From Anaerolineae bacterium (GTDB taxonomy: Bacteria; Chloroflexota; Anaerolineae; DTLA01), in contig JARYMK010000007.1 of the NCBI GenBank assembly GCA_029907165.1, positions 1-38,069 on the forward strand: DNA of 38,069 nucleotides. Reading direction: 5' to 3'. Below the pieces are notes generated by a model. It ran no database searches, was not told where the DNA came from, and saw nothing but the letters and a program-made list of their open reading frames with translations. A program made the position numbers and the translations under genes. The first letter of the stretch is position 1. Each line of letters opens with the position of its first letter. Positions 16,078 to 33,501 of this stretch are shown piece by piece.

Positions 16078-16107
16078 TGTACGGGCGACGCATGCGTCGC
16101 CCGTACA
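16078..16107. repeat. Perfect 30-bp palindrome
   Basis: TGTACGGGCGACGCA followed by its exact reverse complement, with no loop. Confidence 0.85.
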
Positions 16108-16226: not shown

Positions 16227-16250
16227 AGGGGCACGGCATGCCGTGCCCCT
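16227..16250. repeat. Perfect 24-bp palindrome
   Basis: AGGGGCACGGCA followed by TGCCGTGCCCCT. It is part of the repeat-filled spacer. Confidence 0.8.
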
Positions 16251-22989: not shown

Positions 22990-24140
22990 CTACCCGACCA
23001 GCAAGAACCGCAGCAATCCCACGACCGCGCCGCCTGCCACGAGCCACCACATCTCGGCTTTATAACGCAAGAGCAGCACCAGACCAGCCACCGCGATGAG
23101 CAGGGCTCACACGTCCGGTACCGATGTCCGCGCCAGCCCAATCGCGACGGCGAGAATCAGCGCGACGACGGCGGCGTTGACGCCCTTCAGGAATGCCTGG
23201 CCCAGGGACCAGTTGCGCATCTTCGGCAGGTATTTTCCCAGGAGCGCGGTGATGAAGAACGACGGTAGGAACACGGCGACCGTCGCGACCACCGCGCCGC
23301 TCCATCCACTGACCAGATAGCCGATGAACGTGGCCGACGACAGCACCGGCCCGGGCGTCATCTGGCCGACCGCGATGGCGTCCACCAACTGCCGCTGGGT
23401 GAGCCATCCCAGGCGGTTCACCACATCCTGCTGGATGAAGGCGAACAGCACCATGCCGCTCCCGAAGATCAGCGCGCCAACTTTTAGGAAGAACAGACCC
23501 AGGCCAACCAGCCGGTCATCGGCTGCCAGCGCTGCGAAGGGAAGCGTGATTGGAAGCCCGGGCGCGAAGGCCAGCATGGCTGCGCGGGGAGCCTGTGGAC
23601 GGGCGTATAGGAGAGCGCCCGCTAGCCCCGCGCCTACCAAGATAACGGCCTGATCAGCCCCCAGCAGCGAGGCGGCCAGGCACAGCGCGGCCAGCAGGGC
23701 CAGTTTCCAGTCCTTGATTGCCGACTTGCCCAGCCGATAGGTCGCCGCCAGGATGATGGCAATGATGGTCGGGTTGATGCCGTAGAAAAGAGCGCCCGCC
23801 TGCGGCAGCGAGCCATACGTTACGTAGGCCCAGGCCAGTGCGCCGGAGATTAGCGCGGCGGGCAGGATGAAGGCCGCCCCGCCCGCCAGCAGCCCAGGCC
23901 ACCCCGCCCGCAGGTAGCCGATGTGGATGGCCATCTCGGTGGCATTGGGGCCGGGGACTAGGTTCGTGGCCGAGAGCATGTCCATGAAGTACTCGCGGGT
24001 GATCCACTTGCGCTTGTGGACGACCTCGGTCTCCATGAGAGCGATGTGCGCCGCCGGCCCCCCGAACGATATCGTGCCAACTTCAGGAACAGCGCCGCCA
24101 CTTCCCACAGTCGTTGCCGCAGCGTCGCGCCCTCGGTCAT
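22990..24140 (-). pseudogene. chrA: Chromate transporter (CHR family), frameshifted and with an early stop
   Basis: The whole two-domain CHR protein can be read only across three pieces. The N-terminus (ATG 24140, MTEGATLRQRLWEVAALFLKL) is in one frame. Near 24076 one base appears to be missing, after which the continuation GTISFGGPAAHIALME is found in another frame. That frame carries the normal CHR motifs (SATNLVPGPNATEMAIHIGY; GQMTPGPVLSSATFIGYL) to TGA 23107-23109. Beyond it the same frame continues with a hydrophobic helix (ALLIAVAGLVLLLRYK) to TAG 22990-22992, the expected last helix. So it has one frameshift and one nonsense codon. Either the gene is decaying or the assembly has errors. 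It ends the ORP-like operon, 15 bases after its last intact gene. Confidence 0.88.
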
Positions 24141-24155
24141 ACGCCTCTCGCGCCG

Positions 24156-24551
24156 CTAGTGCAGCAATTCCGTGTGGTCCACGATGTTGCCGTTGGCGTA
24201 TGCAAGCACGGCGTCATCAATCCGCGCGATGTCGGTTAGTACGGGTTTGATGCCCAGCCGCCGCATGCTGTCGTAGGCCCCCCAGCCCATGCCCCGGCAC
24301 AGGAGCGCTTCGCAGTCCGAGATGGCGCTGGCCATGCGGGTGTGCTTGTCGTGGCTGGCGGGGTCGGTGCCGTGGCGCTGGCCGTGCGTTTCCCCATGCT
24401 CCTCGTGCACGAACTGGTTGTGGCCCATCTTGTCGCGCAGTTCACGGGTCACGATCTGGCCGTTCTCCACGGTCAGCACGGCGTAGTAGGGCGCGCGCCC
24501 GAAGTGCTGGCTGATGGTGATGCCATCGTCAGTAACGCAAGCGATTTTCAT
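24156..24551 (-). CDS. NifX/NafY-like (Nitro_FeMo-Co) protein with His-rich insert
   Basis: A 131-residue protein. The MKIACVTDDGITISQHFGRA start and the Gly/Cys-containing CEALLCRGMGWGAYDS segment place it in the dinitrogenase iron-molybdenum cofactor family (PF02579), the fold used by NifX, NafY and the orange protein. Between residues 44 and 70 lies an insert with seven His (H44, H49, H52, H56, H60, H67, H70) plus acidic residues, suited to binding metal. Cys80 and Cys85 lie near the usual cluster pocket. It is a paralogue of the next upstream gene. ATG 24551 trims 23 residues of non-homologous leader. Function here: probably carries a metal or Mo-containing cofactor. Confidence 0.88.
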   Translation of the reverse strand: MKIACVTDDGITISQHFGRAPYYAVLTVENGQIVTRELRDKMGHNQFVHEEHGETHGQRHGTDPASHDKHTRMASAISDCEALLCRGMGWGAYDSMRRLGIKPVLTDIARIDDAVLAYANGNIVDHTELLH

Positions 24552-24623
24552 GATGTGTGTCCTCCGAAGGAGTAGTGTAGTTATAGCCAAGAAGCCCGCG
24601 CCGACTGCGCGCGGAGGCACCTC

Positions 24624-25037
24624 CTAATGTAGCCACTCAGTGTGATCCACGATGGTGCCTGCCGCGTAGGAGTGCGCGGCCTCGTGCAAATCCTCTATGT
24701 CCGTGATGATAGGCCGGATGCCGTTGGCGGCCAGGCATTCCCTGGAAGCCCAACTCATGCCGCCCGCTAGAACCGCCTCGCAGTCGCGGATGGCTGCGGC
24801 CACAGCCTGGTGTGCCGCAGCGCCCGCTGCGCCTTCCCCGTGGCAGTCGCGCGCGGCTCCCGGGCTGCCCCGGCGCATCTCATGCGCCTCCAAGTCCAGG
24901 CTCTCGCGGCCAGGATTGGGACGCATCTGTACGTCCTGGACACGCCCGCCCTCCAAGGTCAGGACGGCAAAGTGCGCCGCCCGCCCGAAGTGCTTGCTCA
25001 CGGTCTTCCCGTCGTCTGTTACCACTGCGATCTTCAT
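24624..25037 (-). CDS. NifX/NafY-like (Nitro_FeMo-Co) protein
   Basis: A 137-residue paralogue of the 24156 gene. It begins MKIAVVTDDGKTVSKHFGRA and ends IVDHTEWLH, the same tail as its partner (IVDHTELLH). The middle insert has fewer His but includes Cys, His and Gly (RDCHGEGAAGAAAHQA). CEAVLAGGMSW matches the cofactor-binding region. Its ATG overlaps the PadR stop by 4 bases. Two near-identical cofactor-carrier genes in a row suggest a heteromeric pair or separate metals; that is inference. Confidence 0.88.
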   Translation of the reverse strand: MKIAVVTDDGKTVSKHFGRAAHFAVLTLEGGRVQDVQMRPNPGRESLDLEAHEMRRGSPGAARDCHGEGAAGAAAHQAVAAAIRDCEAVLAGGMSWASRECLAANGIRPIITDIEDLHEAAHSYAAGTIVDHTEWLH

Positions 25038-25480
25038 TTCGTGTCCCTCCTTTCAGGGGGCTCGTCCGATTCGTGAAACTCGCCCTGCCCGTTCTCCATG
25101 TGGTGGTCGTAAGCGTCCAGGAATCGGTGCAGGATGCGGTCGGTGGCTCGCAGTTCCTCTACCCATGCCTTTAGGTGCTCATCGCCTGCGTCGGTTAGCC
25201 GGTACACGCGGCGGGGCGGCCCTGCGGTCTCCTCGGTCTCCCACTCCGAAGCAATCATGCCCGCTTGTTCCAGGTCGCGTAGGATGCGGTACACGACGCT
25301 CTGGTCTGTCGGATAGGCGTCCAGGCCGAGTTTGGCCAGCCCCTCCAGAAGGCCATAGCCATGCGTCGGCCGGTCGTGGAGCAGGAGCAGCACCGCAGGC
25401 TCAATGAAGCGGCGAATGCGCCGTGGACGCACTTCATCGCCGTCGCACGGCGGTCCCTGACATCGGCAGCGTTCGCGCAT
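25034..25480 (-). CDS. PadR-family transcriptional regulator with N-terminal Cys motif
   Basis: A 148-residue protein. The winged-helix domain reads FIEPAVLLLLHDRPTHGYGL, then VVYRILRDLEQAGMI and PPRRVYRLTDAG, the hallmarks of PadR (PF03551). A C-terminal helix for dimerisation and a charged tail follow. The first twelve residues contain Cys5, Cys7 and Cys12 (MRERCRCQGPPC), unusual for PadR and suited to sensing metal or redox state. It lies inside the operon and may control it through the palindromes at 31332-31368. AGGAG and GGGAC precede ATG 25480. The stop overlaps the next gene by 4 bases. Confidence 0.9.
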   Translation of the reverse strand: MRERCRCQGPPCDGDEVRPRRIRRFIEPAVLLLLHDRPTHGYGLLEGLAKLGLDAYPTDQSVVYRILRDLEQAGMIASEWETEETAGPPRRVYRLTDAGDEHLKAWVEELRATDRILHRFLDAYDHHMENGQGEFHESDEPPERRDTK

Positions 25481-25498
25481 GTCCCTTTTCTCCTGCGG

Positions 25499-25717
25499 CT
25501 ACGCGGCGCTCGGGATGTCCCGCATGGCAGCGGCCAGCGCCTGGTTGGCCTGCTCCAGCGCCGCGGCAGCCTCGCGGATGCGCTGCGCCGCTACGGTCTG
25601 GCCAGCCGCTTCGGCCCGCTGCGCCCACTGGCGGAACTCCTCCGCGTGCTCGGCGTTGTGCTCGGCCCAATGGGGCAGCAGAACCGCCAGTTTTTTCAAG
25701 TCATCCTTCTCGCTCAT
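25499..25717 (-). CDS. Small helical protein with His-bearing helix, unknown family
   Basis: A 72-residue, all-helical, Ala/Glu/Gln-rich protein with no signal peptide. The first helix contains LLPHWAEHNAEHAEEF, in which His16, His20 and His24 are four residues apart and would fall on one face, a likely metal site. It starts inside the CooT-like gene, overlapping by 17 bases, behind GGAGGAGG, so the two are translated together. I do not recognise a characterised family. Its neighbour makes a nickel-related role possible. Confidence 0.72.
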   Translation of the reverse strand: MSEKDDLKKLAVLLPHWAEHNAEHAEEFRQWAQRAEAAGQTVAAQRIREAAAALEQANQALAAAMRDIPSAA

Positions 25718-25922
25718 CGTCTTCTCCGACCTCCTCCGAAGGCTCCAGCGTTACGGTGTGCTTCAGGAAGTCTATCTGTCGCACCCGCGCGCGCAGGGTC
25801 TGGGGCGCGTCAAAGAAACTGCGGATGCGCACCTCGTCGCCGTCGGCTTCCAGCGCGATGACGTCGCGCATGATTTCCCGCTTCTCCTCGCCGTGCATCA
25901 GGAACACGATAGCCTGACACAT
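25701..25922 (-). CDS. cooT: CooT-like nickel-binding protein
   Basis: A 73-residue protein. MCQAIVFL with Cys2, then a KREIMRDVIALEADGDEVRI segment and VRQIDFLKHTVTLEP, agree with the CooT family (PF10133). CooT from CO-oxidising bacteria binds Ni through the N-terminal Cys2 and helps mature CO dehydrogenase; family members occur more widely in anaerobes. No CODH gene lies in this window. ATG 25922 is chosen because Cys2 must be near the N-terminus and GGGAGGTAA, which contains the stop of the preceding gene, lies just before it. The tail is acidic. Confidence 0.82.
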   Translation of the reverse strand: MCQAIVFLMHGEEKREIMRDVIALEADGDEVRIRSFFDAPQTLRARVRQIDFLKHTVTLEPSEEVGEDDEREG

Positions 25923-25926
25923 GGGT

Positions 25927-26814
25927 TTACCTCCCTTCCGCCAGCATCTGCTGAATCCGATCCCACACGCGCCGCACCTGCGCCGCCACCGCACCGTCGC
26001 CGAATTCGGTTACGGTTTGCCCGCGGACCATCGCTTGGGTAACGGTGTCATCGTAAGGGATTTCGGCAACGACGGGGATGCCCCTCGCCTGGCAGAAGGT
26101 TGCGATCTCTTGCGAGCGCGCGCGGTTGATGTCCGCCTTGTTCACGCATACCAGTGATGGGATTCGGAAGTGCTCCGTCGTCTTCAAGATTCTCTCCAGA
26201 TCGTGGATGCCCGAAAGCGTCGGCTCGGCCACGAGCAAAGCCAGGTCGGCACCGGTAGCGGCGGCGATGACAGGGCACCCAATGCCCGGCGATCCATCTA
26301 TGATGACCCAGTCGGCGCGGCGCTCGCGGCTGGCCTGCAGCGCCTTCTGCCTCACCAGCGTAACCAGTTTCCCGGAGTTCTCCTCGCCCGGGTATAGCCG
26401 GGCGTGGAACAGCGGGCCGAAGCGCGTTTCCGACCGAAACCACCGGCCGGAGATGACCTGCTCCATGCGGATCGCGTCTGCAGGGCACTGGTAGAAACAC
26501 AGCGCGCACCCCTCGCAGGCCAACTCATCCACACGGTAAGTGTCTGCGCCCGGAAGGATGGCGTCAAATCGGCAGAGTTCGGCGCATCTTCCACATGCCG
26601 TGCATAGGGCCGGGTCAATGACGGCCTTCTTGCCCGACGAGAAATCGGCCTGCTCTTGGATTTCCGGCGAGAGCACCAGTTCCAGGTTGGAGGCGTCCAC
26701 GTCGGCGTCCACCATGATCGCCGAGCCGTTCTGCGAAGCCAGATGGGCCAGCGCAGCGGCTACAGTGGTCTTGCCCGTTCCGCCCTTGCCGCTCAGGATT
26801 ACGATTTGCTTCAT
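25927..26814 (-). CDS. MinD-superfamily ATPase with inserted 2x[4Fe-4S] ferredoxin domain (ORP-type)
   Basis: A 295-residue protein. The deviant Walker A motif is GKGGTGKT (9-16), followed by DADVD (36-40). A ferredoxin domain is inserted at about 65-118 with two cluster motifs: Cys71, 74, 77, 81 and Cys100, 103, 106, 110. The second half of the P-loop domain contains VIIDGSPGIGCPV. This architecture (COG1149) is typical of the ATPases found with orange protein genes in sulfate reducers. It overlaps the paralogous ATPase upstream by 4 bases. It likely transfers or assembles a metal cluster, using ATP as a switch. Confidence 0.93.
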   Translation of the reverse strand: MKQIVILSGKGGTGKTTVAAALAHLASQNGSAIMVDADVDASNLELVLSPEIQEQADFSSGKKAVIDPALCTACGRCAELCRFDAILPGADTYRVDELACEGCALCFYQCPADAIRMEQVISGRWFRSETRFGPLFHARLYPGEENSGKLVTLVRQKALQASRERRADWVIIDGSPGIGCPVIAAATGADLALLVAEPTLSGIHDLERILKTTEHFRIPSLVCVNKADINRARSQEIATFCQARGIPVVAEIPYDDTVTQAMVRGQTVTEFGDGAVAAQVRRVWDRIQQMLAEGR

Positions 26815-27683
26815 GCGGCCCTCCCCTGGACGGTCTCGCGGATGCGGGCGAGAAGCTCCTCAAAGGCCGGCCGGTATTCCGGCAACGCGTGGATCAACGG
26901 CTGGCCCTCAGAGTACGCCTCGGCGATGCGCCTGTCCAGCGGAATGCGCACCAGGACAGGAATCCCCGCCTCGCGGCAGAAGGACTCCACCCCCTGGTCG
27001 CCGACGCCGTCCTTGTTGATGACCACGGCGGTAGGGATGCGCAGCACGTCGCGGGCGACCTCGGCCGCGAGTTTCAGGTCGTGCAGGCCGAAGGGTGTCG
27101 GCTCCGTAACCAGCAGGGCGAAGTCCGCGCCCCGCAGCGTCTCAATGACCGGGCAGGCCGTGCCTGGGGGCGAGTCCAGGATTACGGTGTCGCCGTCGCG
27201 GACTGCAAGTTTGGCCGCCTGTTTCTTCAATTGCCGAATCACCGGCGTTGCCATCGCCTCGCCCACCCGCAGCGTGCCCTGCCCGAAGGCCATCGCGCCT
27301 GCGTGTCCGAACTCCAGCACGCCGATGGAGAACGGAATCTCGCGGATGGCGTTCTCCGGACAGTTCACCGAGCAACTGCCGCACCCGTGGCACATCTCGC
27401 GGAACACCAAGACCTTCTTCGGCAGCACGGCGATGGCGTGGTATTGGCAGACCTGGCCACACTTGCCGCACAGGGTGCACAGGCCCGCGTCCACCTCGGG
27501 AATCAGGCTGATGGCAGCGACCTTGCGGTTCAGTTCCGGTTTCAGGAACAGGGCCGCATTGGGGGCCTCCACGTCGCAGTCCAGCAACGTGGTTCTTCCC
27601 CGTTCGGATGCGACGAGGGCCAGGCTCGTGGCGACGAGGGTCTTGCCCGTGCCTCCCTTGCCGCTGGCGACCGCGATTCTCAT
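26811..27683 (-). CDS. MinD-superfamily ATPase with inserted 2x[4Fe-4S] ferredoxin domain (ORP-type), paralogue
   Basis: A 290-residue paralogue of the 25927 gene with the same layout: Walker A GKGGTGKT (8-15), DCDVEA (35-40), ferredoxin domain with Cys69, 72, 75, 79 and Cys98, 101, 104, 108, and VILDSPPGTACPV. The two usually occur as a pair, and in orange-protein clusters a pair of such ATPases is also found. Its ATG overlaps the MOSC gene stop by 4 bases and its stop overlaps the next ATG, so the three are coupled. No membrane-targeting helix is visible. Confidence 0.93.
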   Translation of the reverse strand: MRIAVASGKGGTGKTLVATSLALVASERGRTTLLDCDVEAPNAALFLKPELNRKVAAISLIPEVDAGLCTLCGKCGQVCQYHAIAVLPKKVLVFREMCHGCGSCSVNCPENAIREIPFSIGVLEFGHAGAMAFGQGTLRVGEAMATPVIRQLKKQAAKLAVRDGDTVILDSPPGTACPVIETLRGADFALLVTEPTPFGLHDLKLAAEVARDVLRIPTAVVINKDGVGDQGVESFCREAGIPVLVRIPLDRRIAEAYSEGQPLIHALPEYRPAFEELLARIRETVQGRAA

Positions 27684-28153
27684 TGCGATTGCTCCTCCTG
27701 CGCGCCCTCGCGCTCCATGGGGATATGCATTACCGCGTCGCCGCGCCGGATATGCCCGCCCCGGATCACGCGGCAGAATACGCCCTCCTGCCGCAGCAGC
27801 GACACGCCGTGAAAGTCATACGTGTGCGGCGCGTCGGGTGGCTTGCCGATTTGCACGACCTCCAGGATGGCCGGGCCTACGTGGATTCGGTCGCCCACGC
27901 GAATGGCGCCGACGTCCAGCCCCTGCACGGTGAGATTGTCGGCGAAACACCCGGGGCGCGCGTCTATGCCGTACTGTTCCCGTGCCCGCGAGATGCTTTC
28001 GTAAGCGATGAGGCTCACCTCAAACGCACCCGTGCCGGCGTGGGCGTCGCCCACCAGACCGTAGTTGACGCGAAGTTCGCCACTTCCGATGTCTACCTTA
28101 GGTTCAGTGCGTTCCTTGCTGGCGCAGACTGCTATGAGGGTTCCATGAACCAT
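27680..28153 (-). CDS. MOSC-domain protein
   Basis: A 157-residue, single-domain protein. The landmarks NYGLVGDAHAG, GCFADNLTVQGLD and GVFCRVIRGGHIRRGD match the MOSC domain (PF03473), a sulfur-carrier domain of molybdenum-cofactor sulfurases and related enzymes. Cys69 and Cys127 are candidates for the persulfide-bearing residue. A MOSC protein next to Mo/Fe-S proteins fits delivery of sulfur to a Mo cofactor or cluster. It lacks any N-terminal beta-barrel, so it is a stand-alone MOSC. It overlaps the following ATPase gene by 4 bases. Confidence 0.9.
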   Translation of the reverse strand: MVHGTLIAVCASKERTEPKVDIGSGELRVNYGLVGDAHAGTGAFEVSLIAYESISRAREQYGIDARPGCFADNLTVQGLDVGAIRVGDRIHVGPAILEVVQIGKPPDAPHTYDFHGVSLLRQEGVFCRVIRGGHIRRGDAVMHIPMEREGAQEEQSQ

Positions 28154-28177
28154 AGAGGCACACTCCTCCGGGCCCTG

Positions 28178-28366
28178 TCATTCCCGTTGCATGGGCGTGC
28201 CGCACTTCGGGCATTTCACCTGATAGCACGGCTGCGCGACTTTGTGCTCCACTCGGTGGCCGCAGTTGGGGCAGATGCAGTAGCCGCCCGGCCCGGCGCC
28301 GGGGCGGTTGCCGCCTCGCCTGCCCTGGCCTCGGCCTCCCCGTTGGCCTCTAGTCCCGATAAACAT
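28178..28366 (-). CDS. Small zinc ribbon with RG-rich N-terminus
   Basis: A 62-residue protein. Residues 5-28 are a Gly/Arg-rich low-complexity stretch (GTRGQRGGRGQGRRGG). Residues 29-62 hold a zinc ribbon with CICPNCGH and CYQVKCPKCG, giving at least four metal-binding Cys. It starts at ATG 28366 after a perfect AAGGAGG; upstream in-frame codons give an unlikely leader. Such ribbons are found beside NifX-like genes in anaerobes. Its role is unknown; it may bind nucleic acid or partner metalloproteins. Confidence 0.75.
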   Translation of the reverse strand: MFIGTRGQRGGRGQGRRGGNRPGAGPGGYCICPNCGHRVEHKVAQPCYQVKCPKCGTPMQRE

Positions 28367-28407
28367 AGTAACCTCCTTATCTAGCCTGGCGGGCGCCACC
28401 GCAGAGA

Positions 28408-28653
28408 TCAGCGGCGATCCCGGTGGCAGCCTCCGCCCGAGTCGCAGGGCGGCTTCTCGCACCGCTCCTCGCGCCCGCAACAGGTGTGTCCTTTGGCGCT
28501 CTGGCCTGCGCCTACGCGATGGTGGGGTGCGGATATGCGCTTCTCAAGGAGCGGCGCGCCGCAGTTGGGACACTTGGGATCATCGTCCTTGCCCAGGACC
28601 AACACCTCAACGGTCCGCTGGCAATTGCCGCAGCGGTACTCGTAGATGGGCAT
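28408..28653 (-). CDS. FmdB-family zinc ribbon protein
   Basis: An 81-residue protein. MPIYEYRCGNCQRTVEVLV followed by CPNCGAPLLEKRIS is the FmdB pattern (PF09723), with four Cys in two CxxC knuckles. The C-terminal tail adds a further Cys cluster (CCGREERCEKPPC), so it may hold a second metal. FmdB was first seen as a regulator of formylmethanofuran dehydrogenase, a Mo/W enzyme, but its biochemical action is unclear. GGAGGG precedes ATG 28653. It sits in the middle of the run of small metal-binding proteins. Confidence 0.88.
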   Translation of the reverse strand: MPIYEYRCGNCQRTVEVLVLGKDDDPKCPNCGAPLLEKRISAPHHRVGAGQSAKGHTCCGREERCEKPPCDSGGGCHRDRR

Positions 28654-28692
28654 GTTCCCTCCTCAATACGGTCGTCCTTGGGCCGCGCGGGT

Positions 28693-29124
28693 TCAAGGTT
28701 TGCCCCTGCGCCGACGGCGGAGACGCCGCCCTTCGTTCGCGGCGCCCCGTGTGCGACCGGCGTCGCCGCCAGTGTGTCCTGCGAGCCACGTGTTTACGAT
28801 GCGGGGCAGGATTTCCCTACCGGCGAAGGCGATGGCCGTGCCTAGCGCGGGCAGCACGCTTCGGCTCAACGCCGACACAATTCCCCGCGGCGCGGGCTTC
28901 GCGGGCATCTGCACCTCGCCAGCCGGTTGAACCGCGCGGTTTTCGGCAGGCTCGGCTGCGAAGGAAATGGCTCCCTCCGGGCACGCTTGGATGCACAGCC
29001 CGCACGAGTCGCACAGCGCATCATTCACGTCGGCGTACCCGCCGGCGACGAACATCGCACCCTTGGGGCAGGCAGCCACGCACGTGCCGCACCCTGTACA
29101 ACGCTCACGGCTCACCTGGATCAT
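28693..29124 (-). CDS. 2x[4Fe-4S] ferredoxin with C-terminal membrane-binding helix
   Basis: A 143-residue protein. The N-terminal half has two full motifs, CTGCGTCVAACPKGA and CDSCGLCIQACPEGA, each for one [4Fe-4S] cluster. After a Pro/Ala linker, residues about 91-110 (SVLPALGTAIAFAGREILP) form a hydrophobic or amphipathic helix. The end is strongly basic (RRLRRRRRGKP). This suggests a membrane-associated electron carrier. ATG 29124 is chosen because GGGGAG lies just upstream and the earlier codons overlap the preceding gene. It likely supplies electrons to the cluster proteins encoded around it. Confidence 0.88.
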   Translation of the reverse strand: MIQVSRERCTGCGTCVAACPKGAMFVAGGYADVNDALCDSCGLCIQACPEGAISFAAEPAENRAVQPAGEVQMPAKPAPRGIVSALSRSVLPALGTAIAFAGREILPRIVNTWLAGHTGGDAGRTRGAANEGRRLRRRRRGKP

Positions 29125-29159
29125 CGCAGTGCTCCCCGGGCGGTGTGGGCGACGGGGCA

Positions 29160-29714
29160 TCAGCCGCCGCGTCTCCCTCCGCCACATCTGCCGCGCCCGG
29201 CACCACCGCCGCGGCCCATCCCTCTGCCGCCACCCTTACCGACGCCTTGCCCCATGCCTCTGCCGGCCCCTTGCCCTGTTCCACGGCCAGCGCCGAGCCC
29301 CGCACCCCGGCCCGAGGGCATGCTCACAGTCGTGCCGGTGATGCGCGGCGCAGACTTGCCGGCGTCGGCGGGCACGGTCGCTTCTCCAATGTTCTGCAGA
29401 TTCCCGGCACGGAACGCCTCTACGGCCTCCCGCACGGTGCCCTGCGTTACGGGATAAACGGCCACACCTGCCGCGTTCAGCACGTCCATCGCGTTGGGGC
29501 CGACGTTGCCCGTCAGCAGGGCCTGAGCGCCCTGCTCTACGATGAACTGGGCGGCCTGGATTCCGGCTCCACCCGATGCGCCCGCTGCCGGGTTGGCGAC
29601 GGCGCTCCACTCCATGCTTTCCGAATCCACGAACAGGTAGAACGGGCATCGCCCGAACACCGGGCTGACCGCCGAGTCCAGATCGTTTCCTGTGGCACTG
29701 ATCACAACTTTCAC
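29160..29714 (-). CDS. NifX-like protein with long Gly/Arg tail
   Basis: A 184-residue protein. The N-terminal 110 residues follow the Nitro_FeMo-Co fold: MKVVISATGNDLDSAVSPVF, FIVEQGAQALLTGNVGPNA and VREAVEAFRAG. This is the form closest to the orange protein of sulfate reducers, whose homologue binds a Mo-Cu cluster. From about 133 to the end, the chain is almost only Gly and Arg with a few Gln, Met and Ala (RGAGLGAGRGTGQG...), ending RGRCGGGRRGG. The tail is shared in style with the two RG-rich zinc ribbons in the operon. The ATG follows AGGAG. Confidence 0.88.
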   Translation of the reverse strand: MKVVISATGNDLDSAVSPVFGRCPFYLFVDSESMEWSAVANPAAGASGGAGIQAAQFIVEQGAQALLTGNVGPNAMDVLNAAGVAVYPVTQGTVREAVEAFRAGNLQNIGEATVPADAGKSAPRITGTTVSMPSGRGAGLGAGRGTGQGAGRGMGQGVGKGGGRGMGRGGGAGRGRCGGGRRGG

Positions 29715-29825
29715 TGCTGACTCCTTTGTTTGGATTGCCGATGCTGCTGGCGAGTGGGGGCGGGCATCACGCCCTGGACGCAGGGCCTGAACCCCGCCCC
29801 CCGCTTGTTGGGGCCTACACGTTCG

Positions 29826-30053
29826 CTACGCCCAGCGTGGCCCGCGCCCGGCGCCGCCACGTCCACGGCCTGCGCTTGCGGGGCCTCGGCCCCGACCAGC
29901 GCCCCGACCGCCGCGGTTGTATCCGCGATCCTCCTCGGCGCGATGCACGTTCTTGCTGCCGCAGTTCGGGCACGTCATGGACGCTCCGGGCGTGCCCGTG
30001 CCATAGGCGACCTCAAACGTGTGGCCACAGTCGGAGCAGCGAAACTTTCGCAT
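29826..30053 (-). CDS. Zinc ribbon with RG-rich C-terminal tail
   Basis: A 75-residue protein. The zinc ribbon occupies residues 1-37 with CSDCGH and CPNCGS. Residues 43-75 are a Gly/Arg-rich tail (RGGRGAGRGRGP). AAAGGAGG lies before ATG 30053. It follows the Mrp ATPase by 32 bases. The RG-rich tail and zinc ribbon are the same parts as in the 28178 gene, in reverse order. The function is unknown. Confidence 0.8.
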   Translation of the reverse strand: MRKFRCSDCGHTFEVAYGTGTPGASMTCPNCGSKNVHRAEEDRGYNRGGRGAGRGRGPASAGRGRGGAGRGPRWA

Positions 30054-30085
30054 TGCCGTCGGTTGTCACCTCCTTTGTATTGCCA

Positions 30086-31162
30086 CTAGAGAACCGGTTT
30101 TGTCTGCTTTTCTGGCACGCGCTTCAACAGTTCATCTGCAACGGCCCCAAACGCCGCCGACTCGTAATCTTCCAGGGCGCCCTCATCCGAAAGGGTGGCG
30201 ATCTGGGGGTCTATCGGAATCTGCCCCAGCAAGGGGACGCCCATGAGCGCCGCCGCCTCTGCCGTGTGGCTGGGGCCGAAGATTTCCAGCCGCTCGCCGC
30301 AGTGCGGGCAGACGGCGTAACTCATGTTCTCCACGATGCCCAGCATGGGCACATGGAGTTGCAGCGCCATCTGTGCGGCCTTGCGCACAACCATGCCCGC
30401 CAGTTCTTGCGGCGACGTTACCAGGATCATGCCGTTCAGCGGGATGCTCTGCATGACCGTGAGCGGCGCGTCGGCAGTTCCGGGCGGCAGGTCAATCAGC
30501 AAGTAGTCCAGGTCGCCCCAGAAGACATCGCCCCAGAACTGCTTGATGGCGCCGCCGATGAGCGGGCCGCGCCAGATGACGGCGTCATCCTCATTGGGCA
30601 GCAGTAGGTTGATGGACATGACCCGAATGCCGGTCTTGCTCTTGACCGGGGCAATGCCCAGCGGGGTGGACGCGGGGCGGTCGTTCAGCCCCAGGATTTT
30701 GGGGATGCTGGGGCCGGTGATGTCGGCGTCCAGGATGCCGACGCGCAGGCCCTTGCGGCGCAGCGCTATGGCCAACTGAGCCGTTACCAGCGATTTGCCC
30801 ACGCCGCCCTTGCCGCTCATGATGGCCAGCACGTGTTGGATGCGGTTCAGGTGGGCGGCCATGCCTTGCTCCTCTTGCTGCCCTCGTACCGATGCAAAGG
30901 CGTGAGCGCGCTCCTCGTCGGTCATCTCCTCCAGTTTGACGTCCACGCGCGCGACGCCCTCCAGCGCCTGAACGGCCTTGCGGACGTCCTCGGCGATGGA
31001 GCCGGACAGGGGGCAGGCCAGGGTGGTGAGGGCGACGGTAACCTCCACGTTGCCGCCGCGAATCTTCACGTCGCGCACCATGCCCAACTCGGTGATACTC
31101 TTGCGCAACTCGGGGTCCATGACGTTGTCCGATGCTGCAATGACTTGCTTCTCTGTAACCAC
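30086..31162 (-). CDS. mrp: Mrp/ApbC-family Fe-S cluster ATPase, first gene of the operon
   Basis: A 358-residue protein. Residues about 5-85 are a MIP18/DUF59-type domain containing LACPLSGSIAEDV. The P-loop domain has Walker A GKGGVGKS (117-124), and VCPHCG (Cys285, Cys288) gives the CxxC that binds a bridging cluster between two subunits. It moves Fe-S, and in ORP systems perhaps Mo-Cu, clusters to target proteins. It has no fused NifX domain. GTG 31162 is chosen, with GGAGG 5 bases upstream; the longer frame starts inside the repeat leader. It is first in a run of about 15 genes, behind a strong promoter. Confidence 0.93.
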   Translation of the reverse strand: MVTEKQVIAASDNVMDPELRKSITELGMVRDVKIRGGNVEVTVALTTLACPLSGSIAEDVRKAVQALEGVARVDVKLEEMTDEERAHAFASVRGQQEEQGMAAHLNRIQHVLAIMSGKGGVGKSLVTAQLAIALRRKGLRVGILDADITGPSIPKILGLNDRPASTPLGIAPVKSKTGIRVMSINLLLPNEDDAVIWRGPLIGGAIKQFWGDVFWGDLDYLLIDLPPGTADAPLTVMQSIPLNGMILVTSPQELAGMVVRKAAQMALQLHVPMLGIVENMSYAVCPHCGERLEIFGPSHTAEAAALMGVPLLGQIPIDPQIATLSDEGALEDYESAAFGAVADELLKRVPEKQTKPVL

Positions 31163-31228
31163 GCTGATCCTCCAATTCGTAGTCAGGGCTATGGGTACTA
31201 GTGCTTGACCACAGAGAAAACTACCCGT

Positions 31229-31302
31229 TGTCATTGCGAGCGAAGCGAAGCAATCTCACGCTTCGGGGATTGCTTCGGGCGCTACGCGCCCTCGCAATGA
31301 CA
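31229..31302. repeat. REP-like palindromic repeat in the mrp leader
   Basis: It starts TGTCATTGCGAGCGAAGCGA and ends CTCGCAATGACA, folding into a long hairpin. A diverged copy lies at 32495-32568. It would sit in the 5' untranslated region of the operon message. Confidence 0.8.
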
Positions 31303-31331
31303 TACCATCAAGAATCCCTGTCGTAGAGTAC

Positions 31332-31350
31332 TAGTTGCATCATGCAACTA
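31332..31350. promoter_or_regulatory. Operator-like palindrome 1
   Basis: TAGTTGCAT, one central C, then ATGCAACTA: a perfect 19-bp palindrome just downstream of the operon start region. It shares its half-site (ATGCAA/TTGCAT) with palindrome 2 and overlaps it by 3 bases. Confidence 0.65.
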
Positions 31351-31368
31351 TATGCAATTTGCATATAG
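31348..31368. promoter_or_regulatory. Operator-like palindrome 2
   Basis: CTATATGCAA, one T, then TTGCATATAG: a perfect 21-bp palindrome overlapping the -10 box of the minus-strand promoter by two bases. A bound repressor would block initiation. Its centre is 17 bases from that of palindrome 1. Confidence 0.7.
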
Positions 31369-31395
31369 TATACTACCGAATCGCCCTGTTGTCAA
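31367..31395 (-). promoter_or_regulatory. Near-consensus promoter of the ORP-like operon
   Basis: On the minus strand, TTGACA (31395-31390) and TATACT (31372-31367) have a 17-base spacer. The -35 box is perfect and the -10 box is one base from consensus. Transcription would start near 31360, about 200 bases before the mrp start. Confidence 0.8.
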
Positions 31396-31440
31396 GTTTG
31401 GCGGGACAAAAATAAAAGGGAGCCAGTAGAAGTGCCCTTT

Positions 31441-31477
31441 GAACGTGCGACGCACCTGCGAGGTGCGTCGCACGTTC
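31441..31477. repeat. Perfect 17-bp stem hairpin, GTGCGTCGCAC type
   Basis: GAACGTGCGACGCACCT (31441-31457) and AGGTGCGTCGCACGTTC (31461-31477) with a 3-base loop. It is the longest member of the family seen at 5639, 16444 and 22944. Confidence 0.8.
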
Positions 31478-31545
31478 CACGTCGGCGTGAATGGAAGAGC
31501 ACGCGAAACTCACCCAAGCGATGCCACCGAATCTGGAAAGAAACA

Positions 31546-31575
31546 AAAGGGCACCGGTGGGAGTGCCCTTTCTTC
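31546..31575. terminator. Possible bidirectional terminator
   Basis: AAAGGGCAC (31546-31554) and GTGCCCTTT (31563-31571) around an 8-base loop, with A-rich sequence before and TCTTCT after. A similar, imperfect AAAGGG/CCCTTT pair lies near 31415-31440. Confidence 0.5.
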
Positions 31576-31761
31576 TCATACGCGGGTCGCCGGAGCCTAT
31601 CCCATCCGGCCCCGCGGTTTGAGACGCTGAATCGCCTTTGGCCATTAGCCTTGCGCCATCGGTCCTTGACTCATCGCCCAGACGCTTCCCGGCACGGACT
31701 GGCTGTCAGGGGCTATAAGCGAGCGGCCAAGGGCTAGCGGCCAAAGGCTAATGGCGCGCCG

Positions 31762-32433
31762 CTATTCCCGAAACCCGCTGCCCGCGGCGCCAGGCGGGAC
31801 CAGTATCACCTCCGTTGTTCCGGCCACCTGCAGGACCGATTCGGTGTAGAACACCACCCGCACGTTGACCACGACGTACACGCCGTCTTTCAGTTTGCCC
31901 TGCCACACGATGGAGTCGCCGGACTTACGGTAGGGGTATCCCTCCACGCCATCCAGTTCCGCCCCCTTGTCTGCCTTTCCGCGGTAGGTAACCAAGGAAC
32001 CCGGAATCTTCTTACCCTTGTCCACCGTGTAGGTAACGATGGCGCGGTAGCGCAGGGGAGCCTCGGGGATGTTGGGCACCGCCTGCGGCGCGGGCTTGGA
32101 AATCGTCAGCGTGGCCGTGCCCAGGATGTGGCACGTGGTCTCGGTGTACCACACGACGCGCCCCGAAAAGTCCATCTTGGCATTCTCCACCGGCTTGCCC
32201 GACCAGTTCAGCGAGTCGCCCTTCTGCTTGTAAGCGTCCTGGCCGTCAATGGTCAGGTGCGCGCCTTTGTCGGTCAGACCCACGTAGCGGACGCCGGTAC
32301 CGGGCAGGTAGTCGCCTACTGCCACGCCCATCTCATACGGCGCGACGTACACCAGGTCGCCGTCCTTCGCGGGCTTGCACCCGGACATCAGCACGACGGC
32401 CAGGATCAGAATCAAGATAGCCCACTTTCGCAT
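31762..32433 (-). CDS. Predicted lipoprotein with two repeated domains, unknown function
   Basis: A 223-residue protein. The N-terminus is a lipoprotein-like signal (MRKWAILILILAVVLMSGC) with Cys19 as the probable lipidated residue; Met at -3 is uncommon. The mature part contains two units of about 85 residues that resemble each other: VGDYLPGTGVRYVGLTDKGA matches GKKIPGSLVTYRGKADKGAE, KGDSLNWSGK matches SGDSIVWQGK, and RVVWYTETT matches RVVFYTESV. It arose by internal duplication. AAGGAGG lies before ATG 32433. No named family is recognised. Confidence 0.78.
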   Translation of the reverse strand: MRKWAILILILAVVLMSGCKPAKDGDLVYVAPYEMGVAVGDYLPGTGVRYVGLTDKGAHLTIDGQDAYKQKGDSLNWSGKPVENAKMDFSGRVVWYTETTCHILGTATLTISKPAPQAVPNIPEAPLRYRAIVTYTVDKGKKIPGSLVTYRGKADKGAELDGVEGYPYRKSGDSIVWQGKLKDGVYVVVNVRVVFYTESVLQVAGTTEVILVPPGAAGSGFRE

Positions 32434-32494
32434 GTACTTCCTCCTTGCGTCGCCACGCGCCCCCTCGTTTCGGTCCCGACGTTTGTTGGTAGCC

Positions 32495-32568
32495 GTCGTT
32501 GCGAGAGCGCAGCACGCCCGAAGCAATCTCCCGCAATCGTGAGTTTGCCTCGCTTCGCTCGCAGTAAC
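32495..32568. repeat. REP-like repeat, diverged copy
   Basis: It begins GTCGTTGCGAGAGCGCAGCA and ends GCTTCGCTCGCAGTAAC. It is related to 31229-31302 and fills the spacer between the lipoprotein and hydrolase genes. Confidence 0.65.
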
Positions 32569-32625
32569 ACGGAAGAAAATATCCGCGCAAATCCCCAACA
32601 AAAGATAGAACCGAAACCCCCCTTC

Positions 32626-33501
32626 TTATCCTTCTCCGAGATAGCGTTCAAAGAACCCCAACACCTTCTGTTTGTACGCTTCGGGTTCCACCTCGTCCAC
32701 GTTCCGATGCCCAGCCTTGGGCACAACCCACAGGTCTTTCGGCTCGCCCGCCGCTGCGAACATGGCCCGCACTTCCTCGGTGGATGTGTACGGGTCCCGT
32801 TCGCCGTGAATCAGCAAGAGCGCCCGTGGCGCGACCTTGCTTGCCCACAGGCCCGGATCGGCTTGCTCCAGGTCGGCCCCCAGCCGCCAACCGGCAGCCT
32901 TCACCGCCAGGTATGCCAGCGGCTTCGCCACGCTGCCCGGGATGCCGCGCTCGCGCATCCCCTCAAAGATGGCATCCCTGAGCCAGACGAAGGAACCGTC
33001 GGCGGCGACGGCGCGGATGTCCTGGGCCAGCGGCGTGCCGCTGATGGCGACCGCCCCGCCCATGGAGAAGCCCAGCACGCCGATGCGACCGTAGCCGCGC
33101 TCCCGCAGGAACTTCTCCGCGGCGAGCAGGTCGCGCCGCTCAAAGTACCCCATGCTCACGTGCTTGCCGCCGCTGCGGCCGTGCCCCCGGAAGTCAAACA
33201 TCAGGACCGTGATTCCGCGCTCGTGGAACCACGGCGCGTACTTCAGGTCGGGGTCCATGCTTCCCGCGTGCCCGTGCAGGAAGATCACGGCGCGTCGTGC
33301 ATCCTGGGCCGGTATTAGCCAGCCCCGCAGCGGGATGCCATCCTCGCTTGTAAAGGTAACATCCTCGTACTCCAGGCCGTACTCCGCCGGATTCGTCGCC
33401 CTGTCGGGCCGTCTCCGCCGCACAATCTGGTCCGATGCATACCAGACGGCGGCGATGACCACAACGGCGACGATGGCCAGCGCAGCCAAAACACCGATCA
33501 T
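32626..33501 (-). CDS. Membrane-anchored alpha/beta hydrolase
   Basis: A 291-residue protein. An N-terminal hydrophobic helix (about 2-21) followed by basic residues anchors it. The alpha/beta hydrolase core has HGHAG (76-80) for the oxyanion hole, nucleophile Ser146 in GFSMGG, Asp236 in GERDPYTS and His265 in AGHRNVDE, so the triad is complete. Family members are esterases, lipases or peptidases, and the substrate cannot be told. Its ATG overlaps the PrsW-like gene stop by 4 bases (ATGA), so the two are coupled. Confidence 0.92.
   Translation of the reverse strand: MIGVLAALAIVAVVVIAAVWYASDQIVRRRRPDRATNPAEYGLEYEDVTFTSEDGIPLRGWLIPAQDARRAVIFLHGHAGSMDPDLKYAPWFHERGITVLMFDFRGHGRSGGKHVSMGYFERRDLLAAEKFLRERGYGRIGVLGFSMGGAVAISGTPLAQDIRAVAADGSFVWLRDAIFEGMRERGIPGSVAKPLAYLAVKAAGWRLGADLEQADPGLWASKVAPRALLLIHGERDPYTSTEEVRAMFAAAGEPKDLWVVPKAGHRNVDEVEPEAYKQKVLGFFERYLGEG

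Follow-up and report, generated by a model that had tools for sequence, protein, structure and literature searches.

The PadR-family protein cdPadR1 of Clostridium difficile R20291 is a PadR-s2 autoregulator, and two sets of its inverted repeats, TACT(N11-12)AGTA, lie on its own promoter and overlap the -35 and -10 elements (PMC5050560). AphA of Vibrio cholerae, also of the PadR family, is a larger, global quorum-sensing regulator that reads ATGCAA-N4-TTGCAT, and several of its reported sites start with ctatgcaa (PMC6855506). LmrR of Lactococcus lactis, a PadR-type repressor that controls a drug exporter, also binds its own promoter; its ATGT/ACAT repeats are 10 nt apart, and several dimers have been reported (PMC4534193). 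LftR is presumed to autoregulate via inverted repeats on its own promoter. With regard to gene content, the closest described systems are the ORP operons of Desulfovibrio vulgaris, in which a Mrp/NBP35 carrier, ORP/NifX-like proteins, and proteins with ferredoxin motifs are encoded together in an anaerobe, and which depend on sigma54, a cognate regulator, and IHF (PMC6345978, PMC3897727).

The stretch analyzed here (38,069 nt from an Anaerolineae bacterium; hereafter the window) contains a similar gene set, headed by a near-consensus sigma70-type promoter with two overlapping palindromes. A putative PadR-2-type repressor that autoregulates an operon resembling those of Desulfovibrio is, in our view, the best reading of this locus. 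We put at about 0.86 the probability that both palindromes, predicted from sequence to be sites for PadR dimers, serve the autorepression of the regulator's own operon. The promoter elements and palindromes are the following, with positions relative to the start site inferred from the -10 hexamer:

31390-31395, minus strand: -35 hexamer TTGACA, exact consensus
31367-31372, minus strand: -10 hexamer TATACT, separated from the -35 hexamer by a 17-bp spacer
31347-31369: palindrome 2, putative primary operator, perfect over 23 bp (core motif 31348-31368), at about -8 to +13
31332-31350: palindrome 1, putative auxiliary operator, perfect over 19 bp (21-bp motif 31331-31351), at about +10 to +30

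The TTGACA-17-TATACT promoter already proposed in a preliminary description of this DNA was found on the minus strand at 31367-31395. It matches 11 of 12 consensus positions and was the sole promoter-like match when positions 23000-32000 were scanned. An Rfam search of 29000-33000 returned nothing but one chance-level match to a CRISPR repeat. Palindrome 1 reads TAGTTGCAT-C-ATGCAACTA and palindrome 2 reads ACTATATGCAA-T-TTGCATATAGT, the core motif of the latter being CTATATGCAAATTGCATATAG. A single motif, CTATnTGCAnnnTGCAnATAG, fits both, palindrome 1 deviating from the 21-bp operator motif by three mismatches. The same description had given two perfect palindromes of 19 and 21 bp, of which the first length holds while the second is in fact perfect over 23 bp. 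The proposed distance of 17 bp between the centers was reproduced (31341 and 31358), as was the overlap with the -10 box, three bases of which lie within palindrome 2. The two palindromes overlap each other by 4 bp and share an arm. Shuffling the local 120 bp never yielded two palindromes with arms of at least nine (0 of 20,000 shuffles), and one such palindrome appeared 23 times in 20,000. In the 3.2-Mb genome, no further copy of either palindrome was found with up to three mismatches; likewise, the shared consensus occurred at this threshold in two copies, i.e. the two palindromes themselves.

In several respects the motif is reminiscent of the described systems. Its outer arms ACTAT/ATAGT resemble the TACTAT/ATAGTA of cdPadR1, but TGCA forms the inner arms, at a fixed spacing, and its predicted target is an ORP-like operon. 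A single target promoter was found in the genome of the window, in contrast to about 200 predicted sites for cdPadR1 (PMC5050560). The ATGCAA/TTGCAT half-sites are those of AphA, but they are separated by one nucleotide rather than four; the sequence similarity between AphA (1yg2) and the PadR protein of the window is weak but detectable. Both the inner TGCA and the spacing differ from the ATGT/ACAT repeats with an 8-10 bp linker that several PadR proteins use. The motif combines, at a spacing of its own, an outer arm similar to TACTAT with an inner TGCA. Where the Desulfovibrio operons are sigma54-dependent, the promoter recognized at this locus is of the sigma70 type and has predicted PadR sites.

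Downstream of the promoter, the genes follow each other on the minus strand:

30086-31162, minus strand: Mrp/NBP35-type Fe-S carrier, a MrpORP relative and the first gene, with a GTG start after GGAGG
29826-30056, minus strand: FmdB-type zinc-ribbon protein (Pfam PF09723)
29160-29714, minus strand: ORP/NifX-like protein with a Nitro_FeMo-Co domain, matching the ORP structure 2wfb (2.1e-16)
28693-29124, minus strand: ferredoxin-type protein with two 4Fe-4S motifs
28408-28653, minus strand: second FmdB-type zinc-ribbon protein (Pfam PF09723)
28178-28360, minus strand: small Gly-rich, zinc-ribbon-like protein with weak Pfam matches, kept in the clusters of relatives
27680-28153, minus strand: MOSC-domain protein
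26811-27683, minus strand: MinD-like ATPase with an inserted ferredoxin domain
25927-26814, minus strand: second MinD-like ATPase with an inserted ferredoxin domain
25701-25925, minus strand: CooT-like protein (Pfam PF10133)
25499-25720, minus strand: 73-aa protein without a Pfam match, kept beside CooT in some relatives
25034-25480, minus strand: PadR regulator (Pfam PF03551, 62.5 bits), proposed ligand of both palindromes
24156-25037, minus strand: two more NifX-like proteins (24624-25037 and an ORF ending at 24156; Pfam PF02579)
23107-24108, minus strand: chromate-transporter-family protein (Pfam PF02417), probably the last gene

This row is tight, with gaps of at most 111 bp and several overlaps, and a scan for terminator-like sites between the Mrp gene and padR found none. 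The genes from Mrp through padR are probably transcribed as one operon, although padR, its twelfth gene, lies 5.7 kb downstream of the promoter. A chromate-transporter-family gene accompanies the cluster in both genomes of the same genus. In these two genomes, the 73-aa gene is also separated from padR by about 1 kb of sequence absent from the window (L041:4880-5860 and L042:6870-7960); the end of this insert reads as coding.

An ORP-type protein, proteins with ferredoxin motifs, and a P-loop carrier are all encoded together here. The Mrp-type carrier reached 333 bits against NF041136, below the cut-off of 450, because it lacks the ORP domain and matches positions 1-240 of 365. The Mrp and ORP-like domains are separate genes, and since a fused MrpORP is absent, we refer to the operon as ORP-like rather than ORP. 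Besides PadR, the only candidates from DNA-binding families found in the operon were the FmdB-type zinc ribbons.

The protein itself belongs to the PadR family, its winged-helix domain (PF03551) scoring 62.5 bits against a cut-off of 27. The closest solved structure is TM0937 (2esh), followed by relatives of LmrR. With 148 residues and ends that are not conserved (orthologues have 124-155), it may belong to the PadR-2 (s2) type, which has about 100 residues and a short C-terminal dimerization part. In BsPadR, Y20 and Y42 are the reported signature tyrosines of the winged helix-turn-helix. Among 32 aligned orthologues, Y42 (HGY) and Y64 (VYR) are invariant and 22 residues apart, as are those of BsPadR; judged by spacing and motif rather than by direct alignment, they are probably the equivalent residues. 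In the genus of the window, PadR starts with the Cys-rich sequence MRERCRCQGPPC (25440-25480), at a place where the other aligned orthologues are rich in Arg and Gly. Sensing of metals or thiols via these N-terminal cysteines, at which the preliminary description had hinted, was rejected: among the 32 aligned orthologues CRCQGPPC is confined to this one genus, and for this reason the cysteines are weak evidence for such a role.

Among relatives, PadR was sought in 150 genomes; 40 neighborhoods were extracted and 80 named loci added, giving 100 distinct padR-upstream regions that were searched with up to 3 mismatches in 16 positions. The motif was present in 48 of the 100 regions, compared with 0.1 expected from shuffles, a count that overstates the number of separate events because related sequences are not independent. 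In many neighborhoods, padR is found alongside Mrp, NifX-like, ferredoxin, and ATPase genes. CTATnTGCAnnnTGCAnATAG precedes padR (or Mrp, in the two same-genus genomes) on promoters of the TTGACA-17-TATAAT type, which places an inverted repeat on the promoter that serves padR itself or its operon. The motif is common to Chloroflexota and Fermentibacteria, i.e. at least two phyla, and Bacillota orthologues have looser forms resembling TATATGT/ACATATA. One orthologue (G014) has the site CTATATGCATTATGCATATAG directly 5′ of padR. The search for the palindromes before homologous operons, which had been suggested as a check, thus found their shared motif conserved far beyond chance, so that the lack of conservation named in the preliminary description as a refutation was not observed.

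Two placements were distinguished. In class A, which includes the window, the site starts inside or just past the -10 box, with its center at about +3 to +5 counted from the hexamer. In class B, the site is CTATTGACAnnnTGCAnATAG, whose left arm contains the -35 hexamer TTGACA. The PadR tree comprised 101 rows, of which 53 were class A, 16 class B, and 32 (about one third, mostly outside Chloroflexota and Fermentibacteria) without a recognizable site at up to four mismatches. On this tree, which is based on 118 columns only, the class labels cluster far beyond shuffled labels.

Across the 150 genomes, the motif occurred at 15 places with at most one mismatch, compared with one for the reversed control. 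Ten of the 15 places are directly 5′ of padR, Mrp, or other cluster genes; one of these ten is before a second operon in G144, headed by an FmdB-type gene. Four matches (L083-L086) lie, by eye, within coding genes and were taken as chance. The genome G062, in which padR is unlinked to the cluster, has copies at two places: (i) the last of the 15, without mismatch and some 25 bp 5′ of a small ORF that has no known family and adjoins an integrase gene (L081:9912-9932); and (ii) one with a single mismatch on the promoter of a DUF5320 gene that stands alone (L082:4446-4466), which suggests that DUF5320 proteins are part of the same PadR regulon.

Position of the site and position of padR were compared in three situations. 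In the genus of the window, padR is twelfth in the operon and the operator stays at the operon head. Within family f28, padR has moved out of the cluster and no longer has the site, which is nonetheless kept before a ferredoxin-NifX-ATPase operon (L181, three mismatches, class B form) and before the DUF5320 gene (L082). Where ATPase clusters have no linked padR (four cases, L169-L172), no site was found at up to four mismatches, a control that is incomplete because some of the contig stretches end near the cluster. Autoregulation by the PadR protein at 25034-25480, previously named as a candidate, is in our judgment strongly supported by these sequence comparisons: the enrichment upstream of padR, the absence from the four clusters, and the retention in f28.

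The role of palindrome 1 is less uniform among relatives. At +17 from the primary site, the two same-genus genomes have four and five mismatches and L059 has four, and in the remaining relatives the signal is scarcely above the control at -17. A second site as a general feature was rejected, since part of the signal arises artefactually from the shared ATAG/CTAT arm and the -17 control rises too; the site looks real only in the genus of the window, perhaps also in L059. From its sequence, palindrome 1 is best read as an auxiliary site at the level of this genus. Instead, it could act mainly as a small RNA hairpin close to the transcript's 5′ end, where at about +10 to +30 it would be able to pair. 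By eye, a GUUGC/GCRAC stem is kept in the two congeners despite the decay of the DNA motif (four and five mismatches), a comparison of three genomes and so too few to decide between hairpin and operator. The palindrome fits the operator motif and has one arm in common with the primary site, and no such hairpin appears in the minimum-energy fold of the leader; we therefore consider the hairpin an improbable though not negligible reading. The leader does have a strong fold, which is due to a dispersed MITE-like inverted repeat between the promoter and Mrp (31222-31305, present at least 40 times in the genome) that neither same-genus genome has at this place.

Dispersed repeats lie on both sides of the promoter, the other being a near-perfect 37-bp palindrome upstream (GAACGTGCGACGCACC...GGTGCGTCGCACGTTC, at about 31440-31478) with tens of matches across the genome. 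Other perfect palindromes also occur in the window, one of 30 bp at 16078-16107 (TGTACGGGCGACGCATGCGTCGCCCGTACA) and one of 24 bp at 16227-16250. That the operator-like palindromes are themselves chance or dispersed-repeat sequence is nevertheless scarcely credible: they are unrepeated in the genome and not yielded by shuffling, and their conservation at the same promoter in relatives refutes it. Dyads like these fit several winged-helix families, and conserved operators do not by themselves identify their protein. An unlinked, different regulator might thus bind the palindromes, padR being merely one of its targets. We regard this as highly unlikely, as the site goes along with linked padR in different phyla, is found at no other promoter of its genome, and has class A and B placements that cluster on the PadR tree; moreover, among the neighbors recognizable with the genes of the window as queries, a second conserved regulator did not appear. 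PadR might also bind and activate, or do both depending on a ligand. AphA, of the same family and with the same half-sites, is an activator at tcpPH and a repressor at other genes. Activation here is quite unlikely, since a promoter already near consensus needs no activator and the sites lie on -10/+1 or on -35, and protein bound at either place would normally keep polymerase away. Repression is favored because the class A and class B placements would both hinder polymerase; the -10/+1 placement in the window suggests it, short of proof.

Under autorepression by PadR, a dimer bound to the 23-bp palindrome would keep RNA polymerase out by occupying the start site together with the end of the -10 box. 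Binding of another dimer to the 19-bp palindrome, which overlaps the first, may strengthen or tune this block. Since padR sits within the operon, the result would be negative feedback, keeping the near-consensus promoter down until an effector, perhaps tied to the status of Fe-S or metal clusters, frees PadR.

Mechanistically, this would be a known type of switch; what appears to be undescribed is the motif, together with the range over which it occurs and the operon it targets. We found no literature joining PadR to the Mrp/NifX-like cluster, and this novelty is provisional, as our literature set is incomplete. More tentatively, and with some doubt, the orthologues of Chloroflexota and Fermentibacteria, to which those of Bacillota would be cousins, might form an undescribed PadR subfamily of dedicated repressors that sense redox or metal-cluster state and control ORP-like Fe-S/Mo carrier operons via a sigma70 promoter, a task that in Desulfovibrio falls to sigma54 and its activator.

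These results provide a concrete candidate operator and regulator for a gene set that is widespread in anaerobes but poorly understood. With the motif, regulon members that lie apart from padR can be sought, the DUF5320 gene in G062 being a candidate, and the signal that releases PadR would reveal the metabolite or metal state to which the ORP-like cluster answers.
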